From a virus, in the IMG/VR virus record IMGVR_UViG_3300023116_003678, positions 1 through 25,556 of that record: DNA of 25,556 nt; one strand, 5' to 3'. Shown one piece after another: positions 1 through 22,892 of this stretch (positions are counted from its first letter, which is position 1; each line of letters opens with the position of its first letter). The notes beneath the pieces are model-generated. The model saw nothing but the letters and a program-made list of their open reading frames with translations. It did not search any database and had not been told where the DNA came from. Made by a program: the position numbers and the translations under genes.

Positions 1-136
1 CAGTTTCAGCATGGAACCATACAATCAGTTCATATTCTTCTTTGAATAGTGATAGCCACCATTGCCACATACGTTTCCATACAGAAACTTTCTTAATGAC
101 TACTTCTTTTTCTTCAATTATCTTTTGCTCTGGCAT
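1..136 (-). CDS. Hypothetical small phage protein, 3' end outside window
   Basis: The reading frame opens at ATG (134-136) and stays open to the window edge, giving about 45 residues that begin MPEQKIIEEKEVV and continue with a Trp-rich basic stretch (VWKRMWQWWLSLF). I do not recognise it. It starts 8 bases after the clamp-loader stop codon. In T4 the neighbour of gp44 is the small clamp-loader subunit gp62, but nothing in these residues lets me claim that. No Shine-Dalgarno sequence precedes the ATG; instead an ATAAATA element ends 5 bases upstream, so a leaderless late transcript is likely. Confidence 0.6.
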   Translation of the reverse strand, partial: MPEQKIIEEKEVVIKKVSVWKRMWQWWLSLFKEEYELIVWFHAET

Positions 137-141
137 AACAC

Positions 142-148
142 TATTTAT
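142..148 (-). promoter_or_regulatory. Late-type promoter motif ATAAATA overlapping the gp44 stop codon
   Basis: Minus-strand CATAAATAG matches the core of the T4 late promoter (TATAAATA). The TAA stop of the clamp-loader gene (145-147) lies inside it and the next ATG (136) follows after 5 bases. Transcription starting at the usual distance would begin at or next to that ATG. Confidence 0.5.
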
Positions 149-7411: not shown

Positions 7412-7999
7412 CTAGTCTGCTAATGTGTATTCGATAATTTCCCAACATCTTTCTGGTGTTTTTGGTTGACTAAATGCACAAGGAAATCTTTCCTGATCGT
7501 TCACAATGAACCAATTTTCACCAGGGTCTCTGAGTCGTCTTCCTGCTTTCAGTATATCATCTGGATTTTTTTCCAAAAAGGTTACTACTTTATCAGTAAG
7601 ACAAATAATTCTATGTATACATTTTGAGTCCAGTGTGTATGAACTACCTTGTGTGGTAATAAATCTGCCAGTAATCAGCGGCTCTATATTTCGCTGTATG
7701 ATTTCCATATTAGCATTGGGTTCGCATTGTCCATATTCTAATACATAAGGAGTTTCTTTATCACTAGCTCTGGCTTCGTATACCAGATTTTCCATACTAC
7801 CTTTAACTAAAGTACTTGTAAAGCCAAACCTGTGTGTATGCGGATCATCACATATCTGTTCTGTTTGATCGCAATAAAAATGAAAACTATTCATGGGCGT
7901 GATTGGTAATTTAACTACACCAAGACCCATATAGTGTGGCTCTACACCAAAACTTTTTAGATAGTCTACGGTTACTGTTTCAAGTTTAGGTGCTTTCAT
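7412..7999 (-). CDS. Cupin-like protein, 195 residues
   Basis: Residues 35-60 contain MNSFHFYCDQ then DPHTHRFGF, an H-x-H pair (His54, His56) followed by a strand with STLVKGSMEN. A third candidate ligand, His129, lies in SSYTLDSKCIHRI, where cupins carry the histidine of their second motif. This pattern suggests a metal-binding cupin such as a small dioxygenase or isomerase; the substrate is unknown. The gene starts 6 bases behind an ATAAATA late-promoter motif that overlaps the clpP stop codon, and no Shine-Dalgarno sequence is present. It heads a five-gene cluster of mostly unknown proteins. Confidence 0.6.
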   Translation of the reverse strand: MKAPKLETVTVDYLKSFGVEPHYMGLGVVKLPITPMNSFHFYCDQTEQICDDPHTHRFGFTSTLVKGSMENLVYEARASDKETPYVLEYGQCEPNANMEIIQRNIEPLITGRFITTQGSSYTLDSKCIHRIICLTDKVVTFLEKNPDDILKAGRRLRDPGENWFIVNDQERFPCAFSQPKTPERCWEIIEYTLAD

Positions 8000-8005
8000 A
8001 CACGA

Positions 8006-8012
8006 TATTTAT
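8006..8012 (-). promoter_or_regulatory. Late-type promoter motif overlapping the clpP stop codon
   Basis: Minus-strand AATAAATATCG. The TAA of clpP (8009-8011) lies inside the motif at the same offset as at 142-148, and the next ATG (7999) begins after 6 bases. Confidence 0.5.
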
Positions 8013-8599
8013 TCTCTTTTATCTACAATTTCGTCGACCAAGCCGAAATCTAGTGCTTCTTGTGAAGTCATAAAATTATCGCGATCCATTGCAAGCTCAA
8101 ACTCTTCAAAGGTTCTGCCTTTTGTGTTATGCTTTACATAAATGTCAGTGAGTTCTTTCTTGATACGCACAATTTCTTTTGCACGTATTTCGATATCACT
8201 GGCTTGTCCTTGTGCGCCACCTAATGGCTGATGAATCATGTGCCTAGCATTAGGTAGCATAAAACGCTTGCCCTCTGCTCCTGCGTTAGCCAAAAAAGAA
8301 CCCATACTTGCAGCTTGCCCCATTACGATAGTGCTCACATCGGGTTTGATATACTGCATAGTATCATACATAGCCATACCTGCTGTTACAACACCCCCGG
8401 GCGAGTTGATATAAAAGTTGATGTCAGCATCAGGATCTTCTGCTTCAAGAAAAAGAAACTGAGCACAGATACTATTTGACACAGCATCGTTTACTTCGCC
8501 ATTTAAAAATACAATTCTTTCTTTTAGTAATCTGCTGTAGATATCGTAACTACGTTCACCAGCAGAAGTTTTTTCAATTACATATGGTACAAAGTTCAT
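8009..8599 (-). CDS. clpP: ATP-dependent Clp protease proteolytic subunit ClpP
   Basis: Serine peptidase that forms a double heptameric chamber and degrades proteins fed by a Clp ATPase. The 196 residues match full-length ClpP: YINSPGG (63-69), active-site Ser98 in MGQAASMGS, His123 in [10 protein letters not shown], and Asp172 in MDRDNFM. All three catalytic residues are present, so it should be active. E. coli ClpP is 207 residues with a propeptide; this one begins directly with [23 protein letters not shown]. No ATPase partner is in the window, so it may use host ClpX/ClpA or act in head maturation, as suggested for some phage ClpP proteins. It has its own sigma-70 promoter and a good site (GAGGATAATAAATG). 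Confidence 0.95.
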
Positions 8600-8621: not shown

Positions 8622-8649
8622 ATTATAACACAAAATTTATTACAGTCAA
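8622..8649 (-). promoter_or_regulatory. Sigma-70-type promoter of clpP
   Basis: Minus strand TTGACT (8644-8649), 16-base spacer, TATAAT (8622-8627), followed by GAGGA and the clpP ATG at 8599. The -35 box overlaps the end of the SufE-like gene. Confidence 0.75.
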
Positions 8650-9032
8650 CGTATTTGTGATTGAATTAAATTTAGTGTTGCTTGCATGCCTCTTTGTCGA
8701 GGTGCAGGCAAAAACTGCATAAAGTCAGCAAACGATTTTATTCCAGTTTCTAAAACCTTCTTCTTGGTTTGTCCTTCCAGTGCTTGGTTCAGTACTGCAC
8801 ATATTCCCAAGGAATATTTAGAATCACTGTCAAACTTTAATTTAACCACAGCAGTGTCTACAGATGCTGAAACCCATAGTTGACTTTGACATCTTCTTAC
8901 ATAGTTTGCCCTGTCTTTTCTGATGCTGTTATCAGTTTTGAGCTCTTCTCCCAAAGAAAATATATACTCTGTTACTTCTGAACTATCAGATAAATTTCTC
9001 ATTTCCTGTACAATAATTTCTAAGGGTAGCAT
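8646..9032 (-). CDS. sufE: SufE-like Fe-S assembly sulfur-acceptor protein
   Basis: SufE accepts persulfide sulfur from the cysteine desulfurase SufS through one cysteine and passes it to the Fe-S scaffold. The 128 residues contain RANYVRRCQSQLWV with Cys48 (Cys51 in E. coli), the following strand VKLKFDSDSKYSLGICAVL and the C-terminal FLPAPRQRGMQATLNLI, which correspond to the G-C-Q-S-Q-V-W, D-S-D-A and S-P-S-R motifs of the family. The frame could begin 12 codons earlier at GTG (9068), but that start lies in the terminator stem and has no ribosome site, so ATG at 9032 is preferred; it sits 5 bases behind a TTAAATA element. No SufS is encoded here, so the host desulfurase would be the partner. 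Confidence 0.8.
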   Translation of the reverse strand: MLPLEIIVQEMRNLSDSSEVTEYIFSLGEELKTDNSIRKDRANYVRRCQSQLWVSASVDTAVVKLKFDSDSKYSLGICAVLNQALEGQTKKKVLETGIKSFADFMQFLPAPRQRGMQATLNLIQSQIR

Positions 9033-9037
9033 GTTAG

Positions 9038-9044
9038 TATTTAA
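9038..9044 (-). promoter_or_regulatory. Late-promoter-like motif TTAAATA before the SufE-like gene
   Basis: Minus strand TTTAAATACTAAC precedes ATG 9032 by 5 bases. It is a one-base variant of the ATAAATA elements seen elsewhere in the window and lies just behind the terminator of the 55-residue gene. Confidence 0.35.
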
Positions 9045-9060
9045 ACAAACACAAAAGAGT

Positions 9061-9080
9061 AGGCCCACTTTCGCGGGCCT
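9061..9080 (-). terminator. Rho-independent terminator
   Basis: Minus strand AGGCCCGC-GAAA-GTGGGCCT: an 8-pair stem with one G-U pair closed by a GAAA tetraloop, followed by ACTCTTTTGTGTTTG. It ends the transcript of the 55-residue protein and separates it from the SufE-like gene. Confidence 0.8.
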
Positions 9081-9105: not shown

Positions 9106-9273
9106 TTAATAACTAAGTTGTGCAAGGCTTAACCACATAATTGATCCAACTATCACAGATAACATGAAAGTTAAAACTGATTCACAAAATTCTCCATCAT
9201 GACAGATTTTATCGTGAAGCGTCTTTAAGGATTCAAAGAGGTTAAGACCTGCCTTTTTGATTAAGGTGGTCAT
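9106..9273 (-). CDS. Small single-pass membrane protein, 55 residues
   Basis: ATG at 9271-9273 is preceded by CTAGGAGACACAA, a strong Shine-Dalgarno sequence, and the frame ends at TAA 9106-9108. The protein starts MTTLIKKAGLNLFESL, has two Cys (24 and 30) around CHDGEFC, and then one hydrophobic segment (about residues 33-51, LTFMLSVIVGSIMWLSLAQL). It has a dedicated late-type promoter (9437-9443), a long leader and a terminator (9061-9080), so it is a complete transcription unit. I do not recognise a family; small phage membrane proteins act as holins, antiholins or superinfection-exclusion factors, but one segment alone does not decide. Confidence 0.75.
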   Translation of the reverse strand: MTTLIKKAGLNLFESLKTLHDKICHDGEFCESVLTFMLSVIVGSIMWLSLAQLSY

Positions 9274-12858: not shown

Positions 12859-13803
12859 TTAACTCCTTAATGTTAAATCCAATTTTTCCAGGTCGTTAAA
12901 CCTGTCTGTGTACACAGGATGGTCCAGATTGAACGGATTTGCTCTTTTGTAAGTAGTACTCCTTACACGTTCTGCAACCGCATCCACAATTTGTCTGTCT
13001 GTGTCAGTTAGTTTATTATAATCGATATCGCCACGTATTAATGAAAATAGAGCAATATCAAACTCCAAGTAACTAAAACCAAATTGGTCTTCGTCACCAT
13101 TAGCAATACCCAAACCATCTGTAGGTACTGCTTCTACAATAGAGCTGGGTACGCCTAAATGCTCAGCAAGTGCTGGTACTTCCCAACTTTTTGTAAAACT
13201 CTGTATAGGTGCTACGTCACCGACGTCACCGTGTAATGTCCAAAAGCCTGCGGCTAGTTCTGAAAAATTGTCAGTACTTGCGACAAAACCGTTATGTTTA
13301 CTGGCTAAATTATACAGAGTGATCATTCGCAATCTTGCACGAATGTTACCTCTGCGTTTAGCAGATTCAATACTGTCGTCATTTAACGTGTCATCAACCG
13401 GAGCCGCACCGTTTGTTAGGCGTTCCACAAACTCGTTAAATGCGATAGTTAAATCAATATTTTTGTGTTCGATACCCAGTGCTTTGCATGCTTCAATACC
13501 ACGCTTAGTTTCTGCTGGGTTTTGATGGATGGGTAAAGTTACGCCAATAACGTTATAACCTGCACGTTTGAATAGTGCGGCTGTAACAGCACTGTCAATA
13601 CCGCCACTCATGCCCAACACCACTGTGCCAATATTGTTACGCAATTTGTAGTCAATCAGTGTACGTGTTATGTCTTGTGCTAGTCCAGAAATATCATTGT
13701 GGTAATATCCAAAACTGATCAATTTCTCTAACTGATCTTTGAACCAATCGCTTATAACAGGTTGCCTGTTATACCGTAAAATTTTTGTCTGTAGTGTACT
13801 CAT
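12859..13803 (-). CDS. nadE: Ammonia-dependent NAD+ synthetase
   Basis: Converts nicotinate adenine dinucleotide to NAD+ using ATP and ammonia. The PP-loop is VVLGMSGGIDSAVTAALF with SGGIDSA at 66-72, followed by GVTLPIHQ and, later, ASTDNFSELAAGFWTLHGD and DVAPIQSFTKSWEVPALAEH, which correspond to the G-T-D-x-x-E and D-x-x-P-I/L-x-x-L-x-K motifs of NadE. Length is 314 residues against 275 in E. coli, mainly through an N-terminal extension; there is no glutaminase domain, so free ammonia is the donor. A late-type motif lies 26 bases upstream of the ATG. It may keep NAD available in infected cells or reverse NAD loss caused by host defence. Confidence 0.88.
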   Translation of the reverse strand: MSTLQTKILRYNRQPVISDWFKDQLEKLISFGYYHNDISGLAQDITRTLIDYKLRNNIGTVVLGMSGGIDSAVTAALFKRAGYNVIGVTLPIHQNPAETKRGIEACKALGIEHKNIDLTIAFNEFVERLTNGAAPVDDTLNDDSIESAKRRGNIRARLRMITLYNLASKHNGFVASTDNFSELAAGFWTLHGDVGDVAPIQSFTKSWEVPALAEHLGVPSSIVEAVPTDGLGIANGDEDQFGFSYLEFDIALFSLIRGDIDYNKLTDTDRQIVDAVAERVRSTTYKRANPFNLDHPVYTDRFNDLEKLDLTLRS

Positions 13804-13829
13804 AATATTAATTTATTAACAACTGCTTT

Positions 13830-13836
13830 TATTTAT
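13830..13836 (-). promoter_or_regulatory. Late-type promoter motif GATAAATA upstream of nadE
   Basis: Minus strand GGGATAAATAAAAGC in the 45-base gap between the GMP reductase stop and the nadE ATG (13803). The leader would be about 20 bases, without a clear Shine-Dalgarno sequence. Confidence 0.5.
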
Positions 13837-19772: not shown

Positions 19773-19811
19773 ATAAATAACTGTATAATATTATAACAGT
19801 TCTTTTAGGAG
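19773..19811 (+). promoter_or_regulatory. Promoter region of the oxygenase gene with inverted repeat and Shine-Dalgarno
   Basis: Plus strand has a late-type AGATAAATA (ATAAATA 19773-19779), then CTGTATAATATTATAACAG (19781-19799), an inverted repeat that also contains a TATAAT box (19784-19789), and TAGGAG (19806-19811) before ATG 19818. The repeat could be an operator or simply part of two stacked promoters. No good -35 box is visible for the TATAAT. Confidence 0.5.
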
Positions 19812-19817
19812 AATAGC

Positions 19818-20381
19818 ATGCTACAAAGCAAAGTAAGAATCAAGAAAAACGCATTAACATCAGAGCAATGTGCACAGCTCATCGCTAATGCCGAAAACTT
19901 TGAATACGATATTCTAAAACATGACATCGTTGAACAATCTAAGTTTTCTTCGAAAGAAGAACTGGACCAGGGTACAGTAGAGAGTACACATGATGATAGT
20001 TACTCAAAGCGTAAAGTTTCTCAGTCCCCAATTGAGCCAGTATTTTCTGAATGGGACGGTAATCCAGTTTACAGATGCAAAATCATGAAATATGAAGAAG
20101 GCGAGTATGTAAATGAGCATCGCGATGCTCAATGGATGTGCCTAAGTAATTATTGGGAACCTGATACCAATAAGCAGTCTAAATCATTGATGGTTATTCC
20201 ACTAAATGATGATTATGAGGGTGGTGAGTTCACAGTAGAAGGTCAAGTTGTACCACAAGAAGTTGGTACATGTATCCAGATACCATGTGATCCTTTCAGC
20301 CCAGAAACAAGTCCTAAGCATGGCGTTACAGAAATTACTAAAGGTACTAGATACAGTTTAGTATTTTGGAATTTCGCGTAA
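19818..20381 (+). CDS. 2-oxoglutarate/Fe(II)-dependent oxygenase (P4H/PKHD-like)
   Basis: 187 residues of the double-stranded beta-helix family that hydroxylates a substrate using Fe(II), O2 and 2-oxoglutarate. Iron ligands are His101 and Asp103 in GEYVNEHRDAQW and the distal His168 in SPKHGVTEI; Arg178 in KGTRYSLVFW would bind 2-oxoglutarate. DDYEGGEFTV before the distal motif is typical of prolyl-hydroxylase-like members. Similar proteins are common in cyanophages, with mostly unknown targets. It is the only gene on the plus strand and has its own promoter region, Shine-Dalgarno sequence and terminator, so it behaves as a self-contained unit. Confidence 0.9.
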   Translation: MLQSKVRIKKNALTSEQCAQLIANAENFEYDILKHDIVEQSKFSSKEELDQGTVESTHDDSYSKRKVSQSPIEPVFSEWDGNPVYRCKIMKYEEGEYVNEHRDAQWMCLSNYWEPDTNKQSKSLMVIPLNDDYEGGEFTVEGQVVPQEVGTCIQIPCDPFSPETSPKHGVTEITKGTRYSLVFWNFA

Positions 20382-22257: not shown

Positions 22258-22455
22258 TTATTTGATCTTGCCGGTACGCAAGTGATCTTTGCCTATCAGG
22301 CAACCTTTGGTAAAACTTGGACTGCGTGAATTGCAGTTTGTTGAACGTCTTTTTCTGGCCCATCCATATCCAGCCTTGTGCCCACTACAATCTATAGTGC
22401 ATTGGCTTCCAAAAAACTTTGGTGGCGCTTCTGATATGATTTGCTCAATCTTCAT
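22258..22455 (-). CDS. Small Cys/His-rich phage protein, 65 residues
   Basis: Contains GSQCTIDCSGHKAGYGWARK and later NCNSRSPSFTKGC, a pattern that I recall from small proteins of cyanophages and other marine T4-like phages (C-x3-C-S-G-H-x-A-G-Y-x-W). The four Cys and one His could hold a metal or form disulfides. The opening MKIEQIISEA is also shared in style by several marine phage proteins. Function unknown; virion association is possible because it follows a late-type promoter. No Shine-Dalgarno sequence. Confidence 0.75.
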   Translation of the reverse strand: MKIEQIISEAPPKFFGSQCTIDCSGHKAGYGWARKRRSTNCNSRSPSFTKGCLIGKDHLRTGKIK

Positions 22456-22460
22456 ATCAG

Positions 22461-22467
22461 TATTTAT
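22461..22467 (-). promoter_or_regulatory. Late-type promoter motif overlapping the cupin stop codon
   Basis: Minus strand AGATAAATACTGAT. The TAA of the cupin gene (22464-22466) lies inside it and the ATG of the next gene (22455) follows after 5 bases. Confidence 0.5.
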
Positions 22468-22892
22468 CTGCCTTGACTATATTTTTCCTCTAAGTACTGC
22501 TCATGCTGTACCCATGTGCCTTGTCTTAGGAAACCCCACTCTCTTAACTTTGGCCCAGGAATAAACAAAGTCCAAGGAGTAACGCCAGGCTCAAGCTCGA
22601 TCCTATGATAAGACTTAGCACTGCAAATCCTACAGTGTCCGGGTCGCCTCCAAAATTTACCATTCGGAGTATATTCCCAATAACCGCCACGCACAATAAG
22701 AGTAAAATAAGGCCAAGGGTGATCATGTAGGTCATCTAAATCACCTTTGTGAAATTTATGTAAAAATATGTTGAAAGGAAACCATTTGCGGTCCTTTAAA
22801 AACAAGTAATATCTGGTCAGGTACGGTTCGTTTTCGAACCTGTCCATGATTACTCTTTTACGACCCAGTTTCTCTAGTAGGCTTAGTAACAT
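22464..22892 (-). CDS. Cupin-like protein, 142 residues
   Basis: Contains LHDHPWPYFTLIVRGGYWEY with His56 and His58 of the first cupin motif, and SAKSYHRIEL with His96 of the second, then WTLFIPGPKLREWGF. This pattern recurs in small phage cupins of unknown substrate. ATG at 22892 is preferred over Met16 because CAAGGAGGACGTTTAATG is a near-perfect Shine-Dalgarno sequence, although it creates a 35-base overlap with the membrane protein gene. Confidence 0.7.
   Translation of the reverse strand: MLLSLLEKLGRKRVIMDRFENEPYLTRYYLFLKDRKWFPFNIFLHKFHKGDLDDLHDHPWPYFTLIVRGGYWEYTPNGKFWRRPGHCRICSAKSYHRIELEPGVTPWTLFIPGPKLREWGFLRQGTWVQHEQYLEEKYSQGR

Follow-up and report, generated by a model that had tools for sequence, protein, structure and literature searches.

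In a set of T4-like phage genomes the late-promoter box ATAAATA is frequently separated from the start codon of a gene by exactly five bases. The best reading of this arrangement, and one we consider very probable from the sequence comparisons, is that gp55-type late promoters in these phages would produce leaderless mRNAs. Evidence for the class is directly visible as a spike in the spacing between box and ATG that is absent from T4, Syn9 and 121Q, as a lack of Shine-Dalgarno (SD) sequences, as an initiator signature, as conservation among orthologues and as switching of genes between two arrangements. The stretch of DNA analyzed (the window) was a complete public IMG/VR record of 25,556 bases. 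It is a piece of a large T4-like phage genome and carries genes for a gp44-type clamp loader, a ClpP-type head maturation protease, an NAD synthetase and a cupin. Spacing is given below as the gap, the number of bases between the box and the ATG.

Box, stop codon and start codon in the window

The first-pass annotation of the window had described ATAAATA followed by five or six bases and ATG at three minus strand loci, and all three were present (148-134, 8012-7997 and 22467-22453). At each of them the TAA inside the box is, as it had also stated, the stop codon of the upstream gene (gp44, clpP and cupin, respectively). The first box (142-148, minus strand) is preceded by a C at -13, and the gp44-like clamp loader ORF (145-1071) stops within it. 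The spacer GTGTT (-5 to -1) and the ATG follow at 134-141, giving the unit ATAAATA GTGTT ATG with a predicted +1 at 136. The predicted leaderless ORF (1-136, minus strand) is cut by the window end; its relatives are about 100-107 aa long and it was assigned to no family. The second box (8006-8012, minus strand) holds the stop codon of the ClpP-like head maturation protease ORF (8009-8599) and is separated by a gap of six (TCGTGT) from the ATG at 7999 of a 195-aa ORF (7412-7999, minus strand), for which a leader of 0-1 nt is predicted. This ORF weakly resembles phrog_8313 and cupin/cysteine dioxygenase, and a search of viral contigs found no relatives of it. The third box, GATAAATA (22461-22467, minus strand), has a G at -13 and contains the stop of the cupin/cysteine-dioxygenase-like ORF (22464-22892). 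It is followed by the gap CTGAT and by the ATG at 22455, the predicted +1, of a 65-aa ORF (22258-22455, minus strand) in the unit ATAAATA CTGAT ATG. Three relatives of the 65-aa ORF (L397-L399) are 48% identical and are without the promoter.

A fourth, weaker case proposed at 9030-9044 was real. The box TTAAATA (9038-9044, minus strand) has a T at -12, overlaps no upstream stop and is followed by the gap CTAAC and an ATG at 9032, so that the unit at 9044-9030 reads TTAAATACTAACATG. The ATG opens a 128-aa ORF (8646-9032, minus strand) that is predicted to be leaderless and for which no relatives were found. An intrinsic-terminator-like hairpin (9061-9080, minus strand) lies directly upstream, the box beginning 16 bases beyond it, and the ORF therefore probably depends on the promoter at 9044. 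An alternative, longer GTG start at 9068 falls within the hairpin region. None of the four starts, three behind ATAAATA and one behind TTAAATA, has an SD sequence, which bears out the annotation for its three main loci.

The window has three further ATAAATA words, and each of these precedes a gene with a leader. One GATAAATA box (9443-9437, minus strand) precedes a leader of about 158 nt (9431-9274) with the SD AGGAG and a 55-aa ORF (9106-9273). This leader matched no Rfam family and no phage sequence, and its folding was no better than that of shuffles. Another GATAAATA box (13836-13830, minus strand) stands 26 nt before the NAD-synthetase ORF (12859-13803) with no clear SD. Within the same region (13795-13836, minus strand) the NAD-synthetase ATG is preceded at gap 6 by a second near-box, ATAAATT, which may be a degenerate leaderless promoter. 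The last GATAAATA box (19773-19779, plus strand) is followed by ACTGT, the predicted +1 A, the SD TAGGAGAA and an ATG at 19818.

A spacing of exactly five bases in related phages

The first-pass annotation had argued that three copies of the arrangement spoke against chance. For the window alone this did not hold, as ATAAATA-N3-9-ATG was observed three times against 1.6 +/- 1.3 in shuffled sequence and 24 of 100 shuffles reached three. When an ORF and a gap of exactly five were required, 2 of 6 ATAAATA words qualified compared to 1 of 280 for the other 20 A5T2 words (P = 0.001). Because the count from the window alone was weak, relatives were examined, and these provided very strong support for the argument. 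IMG/VR was searched for relatives of gp44, of the head protease and of the cupin, and the pooled spacings between ATAAATA and an ORF's ATG had a spike at exactly five bases. The extension of the motif search to relatives thus found the arrangement present, where its absence had been named as a reason to discard it.

We then read whole records, both from IMG/VR (G001, 250 kb; G002, 340 kb; G004, 110 kb; G009, 357 kb) and from isolates (PA5oct, T4, Syn9, HTVC008M, Mosig, Melnitz, P-SSM4 and 121Q). Eight related or analogous genomes (the window, G001, G002, G004, G009, HTVC008M, Mosig and Melnitz) were pooled, giving 501 ATAAATA words, and spacing was measured to ATGs that open ORFs of at least 40 aa. 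A gap of five was found at 82 of the 501 words with about 2-3 expected, and these 82 sites are not all independent because the signature-bearing genomes fall into two groups of relatives. Neighboring gaps held 0-11 sites each (gap 4, 2; gap 6, 11). The distribution was bimodal, with the spike at gap 5, a trough at gaps 7-15 (26 sites in all) and a broad hump at gaps 16-35, where SD sequences occur. The missing class is that of leaders of 2-10 bases, which are too long for a leaderless mRNA and too short for an SD sequence. Some sites have a gap of six, or no pyrimidine before the ATG, and would have the ATG at +2 or be chance matches.

Control words of the same composition produced no spike at gap 5. 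Compared to such words the excess was significant in G001 (26 of 101 words, P = 2e-33), G002 (17/121, P = 2e-18), G004 (10/47, P = 7e-13), HTVC008M (9/45, P = 2e-12), G009 (8/83, P = 2e-8) and Mosig (7/56, P = 4e-6). Gap-5 sites were few in Melnitz (3/42), P-SSM4 (2/47) and PA5oct (5/145), and there were none in T4 (0/65), Syn9 (0/38) or 121Q (0/55).

Promoter register and initiator

The T4 late box spans -13 to -6 (PMC1524935), and a gap of five would therefore place +1 on the A of the ATG. The claim that these are T4-type late promoters with +1 on that A, and hence with leaderless mRNAs, gained strong support from comparative sequence. The three main window sites have an exact ATAAATA and the fourth has TTAAATA, and the T/A initiator matches. 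In leadered promoters of the same phages the positions box +5 and +6 were T in 59% and A in 63%, the same values as in T4 itself (T 59%, A 63%), compared to only 30% A at box +6 for ATAAATA words without a downstream gene. As read from sequence, the initiator of the leadered promoters is a sign of +1 that is independent both of T4 and of the start codon. A G at -13, where T4 late promoters have a T (PMC2988020), was found at 55% of gap-5 sites and 66% of leadered promoters as compared to 19% of geneless ATAAATA words. The base before the ATG at gap-5 sites was a pyrimidine in 99% of 77, which is no demand of translation. Because they share this initiator pattern and the G at -13, the gap-5 sites resemble the same promoters with the start codon placed on the start site.

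Translation signals at gap-5 starts

A strong SD sequence (-5 kcal/mol or better) was present at 0 of 105 gap-5 and gap-6 starts, compared to 38% of leadered starts and 31% of other long ORFs (P ~1e-28). The start codons at gap 5 were 78 ATG, 1 GTG and 0 TTG, a bias that leaderless initiation would demand. Exclusive use of AUG together with loss of the SD would fit selection for leaderless initiation. The first 40 bases were slightly less structured than those of other ORFs (mean -2.6 vs -3.1 kcal/mol, P = 0.04).

Conservation of the register and switching between modes

The gene following gp44 has a gap of exactly five in the window and in its orthologues at L008, L017, L277 and L013, and an SD leader (AGGAG) behind the same promoter in L012 and L016. 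The SD-led copies read GATAAATA-N-TGTT-ACACAGGAG..ATG as compared to ATAAATAGTGTT-ATG in the window. In a family of about 120 aa encoded downstream of ClpP, a gap of five or six was kept at six loci (L085, L088, L093, L096, L109 and L111) with identity down to 36%. A 51-54-aa protein encoded after the head protease likewise starts at gap 5 in L097, L104, L105, L113 and L114. In the L090 copy of this gene the ATG at +1, present in L097, is changed to ATA, and a GGAG and a later ATG are found instead. These orthologue comparisons show that the register was kept under sequence divergence and that the leaderless and SD-led modes interchange.

Genes that start at gap 5

HTVC008M is a cultured pelagiphage, and each of its nine gap-5 ATGs coincides with a gene start picked by the annotators. 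Known late genes are among them, the set including the DNA end protector, tail tape measure, baseplate wedge, tail-tube-associated baseplate protein and CsgF. Seven of eight sites in Mosig agree with annotated starts, again including the DNA end protector, as do three of three in P-SSM4 with one gap-6 site counted. In PA5oct, EST35_0222 starts at a gap-5 site, its upstream neighbor is on the opposite strand, and according to its record it is a virion protein detected by mass spectrometry. The gene following gp44 showed no homology to the structural protein that PA5oct encodes at this position. PHROG and Pfam matches at gap-5 genes of the jumbo relatives included the terminase large subunit, a gp25-like baseplate wedge, a head-tail adaptor and the tail tube. 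The four ORFs behind these boxes in the window received no functional assignment.

Two single sites were also observed. The plastoquinol terminal oxidase gene of the Prochlorococcus phage P-SSM4 (107316) starts at gap 5 from ATAAATA, and this cyanophage metabolic gene may also be leaderless. At G001:C1:128676-128740 two divergent gap-5 promoters lie 35 bases apart, placing two predicted leaderless genes back to back.

Distribution among phages and candidate factors

In a gp44 tree the window grouped with 16 other IMG/VR loci (100/99 support), and T4 and the Kyanoviridae, including HTVC008M and Mosig, fell on a far branch. Judged from these positions, two or more deep branches carry the gap-5 signature, and on others it is weak or missing. 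Restriction to phages of alphaproteobacterial hosts was considered and rejected, as the Sinorhizobium phages phiM12 and phiM9 had no gap-5 site and the host of Melnitz belongs to the Methylophilales. Host type is no simple explanation of the distribution.

Homologues of gp55 were found in G001, G002, G007, G009 and PA5oct. None was found in the fragments G004, G005 and G006 or in the 25.6-kb window, a record too short to decide. Most genomes with the gap-5 signature encode bS21: it was found in HTVC008M, Mosig, Melnitz, G002, G004, G006, G008, G009 and PA5oct and was not found in T4, Syn9, S-PM2 or G001. As G001 has the strongest gap-5 signal without bS21, a role for bS21 as an enabling factor is just a lead. 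A phage-encoded IF-1 homologue was detected only in G009 (G009:C1:54449-54646; 7.6e-21).

Alternative explanations

In phage DNA rich in A and T both ATAAATA and ATG occur often, and 24 of the 100 shuffles matched the window count, as a chance origin would predict. We give this origin almost no credence: P values reached 2e-33 in relatives, almost all gap-5 sites of the isolates coincide with annotated starts, and T4, Syn9 and 121Q have none. For the group, chance was refuted by the test against words of the same composition. Alternatively, the stop codon in the box could point to termination-reinitiation, in which a ribosome stops on the box TAA and restarts at the ATG eight bases on, the resemblance to a promoter being incidental or for downstream genes only. 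The upstream stop lies inside the box at all three main window sites, and a codirectional ORF end falls within -25 to +40 in 39 of 84 gap-5 sites. However, the nearest such end is 26-200 bases upstream in 34 of the 84 and there is none in 11, which leaves 45 of 84 unexplained, and on these distances reinitiation was rejected as the sole cause. The first-pass annotation had made the upstream stop part of the motif, and this did not generalize: only 12 of 82 gap-5 sites (six genomes; upstream ORF of at least 60 codons) have it, and the overlap is mostly incidental, arising because genes are tightly packed and the box itself contains TAA. Divergent first genes, such as the 546-aa ORF at 149608 in G002 and PA5oct EST35_0222, are among the 45 sites. 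Translational coupling accounts neither for the two base preferences (G at -13 and a pyrimidine at -1) nor for a spike at precisely five bases. We consider reinitiation very improbable.

The two other alternatives accept the promoter. Transcripts could start at the A of the ATG with the first ORF hardly translated, the promoter serving downstream genes and the first ORF being read from mRNA initiated upstream. Some bacteria translate leaderless mRNAs poorly, and the first ORFs are sometimes short. Yet a promoter for downstream genes only would need no register with an ATG, and gap 5 was found 82 times as compared to 2 and 11 for its neighbors. The AUG-only use (78:1), the lost SD and the detection of EST35_0222 in virions, with its upstream neighbor on the other strand, also stand against poor translation, and we think it highly unlikely that this accounts for the class. 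A start one to a few bases upstream of the ATG, giving leaders of 1-3 nt in place of strictly leaderless mRNAs, is less far-fetched and still unlikely. Start choice by RNA polymerase is flexible and the 11 gap-6 sites, including the one downstream of clpP in the window, would suit such leaders, but in leadered promoters A peaks clearly at box +6, and at gap 5 the pyrimidine-A step falls on -1/+1. Functionally, mRNAs with such leaders would still be without an SD.

Proposed mechanism

We return to leaderless mRNAs from gp55-type late promoters as the preferred reading. Host RNA polymerase with a phage gp55-like sigma would read the box (G)ATAAATA at -13/-12 to -6, with a five-base spacer, preferentially N-T-R-R-Y, between the box and +1. 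Two arrangements would be stable. In one the start codon would sit exactly at +1, so that the late mRNA begins with AUG and has no leader, and the ribosome would engage this 5'-terminal AUG without an SD sequence. In the other the ATG would lie 16-35 bases past the box with the SD in the leader. The start at the A of the ATG, gp55 as the reader of the box and efficient translation of the leaderless mRNA are what we infer from the sequence patterns. It is also possible, though on balance doubtful, that several deep T4-like branches (marine and freshwater jumbo phages, SAR11 phages and Methylophilales phages) have a two-mode late regulon, deliberately leaderless and SD-led, in which small mutations switch genes between modes and the leaderless class is served by phage-adjusted initiation, possibly through bS21.

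Relation to known systems

Late transcription in T4 is a textbook case, and the late mRNAs of this phage carry SD leaders. The promoters described here share with T4 late promoters (gp55/gp33/gp45; consensus TATAAATA, -13 to -6) the box, the inferred start distance, the T/A start preference and an AT-rich spacer without a -35 element, and gp55 homologues are found in the long relatives. T4's own ATAAATA boxes lie mostly 12-36 nt before the ATG, about half with an SD, and 0 of 65 at gap 5. Unlike in T4, -13 is mostly G here and a large share of sites have the predicted +1 on the start codon. ATAAATA has been predicted upstream of structural genes in the jumbo phages CBB and GAP32 (PMC5259590), which likewise combine this box with a gp55-like sigma and structural genes. 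In contrast to our set, no leaderless class was reported for them (PMC5259590), and their relative 121Q, whose gp44 falls in the CBB/RaK2 clade, has no gap-5 sites.

With the leaderless mRNAs of bacteria and phages the class shares the absence of an SD and, as predicted here, a 5'-terminal AUG. The cI mRNA of lambda transcribed from PRM is an example, and to our knowledge the phage cases described previously are single genes expressed from sigma-70 promoters. In contrast, the sites described here form a repeated class of fixed spacing within the late regulon of T4-like phages. Late promoters of phiKZ carry a TATG element where transcription starts, which would be an analogous but unrelated case. 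Leaderless transcripts are also known in mycobacteria (PMC4633059). A search of the open literature found no paper joining leaderless, phage and TATAAATA.

Together these data show that in a set of marine and freshwater relatives of T4 a spacer of exactly five bases often separates the late promoter from the start codon. The message would then begin with the start codon, a mode of late expression that T4 lacks. This would amount to leaderless expression as a systematic class among T4-like phages that are abundant in the sea, in which a 15-base unit serves as both promoter and start codon and would aid the late-infection expression of any gene inserted behind it. The arrangement predicts the exact RNA 5' ends of named genes in cultured phages, would correct start-site calls in gene annotation and may offer a set of natural cases in which to test how mRNAs without leaders compete for ribosomes in infected cells.
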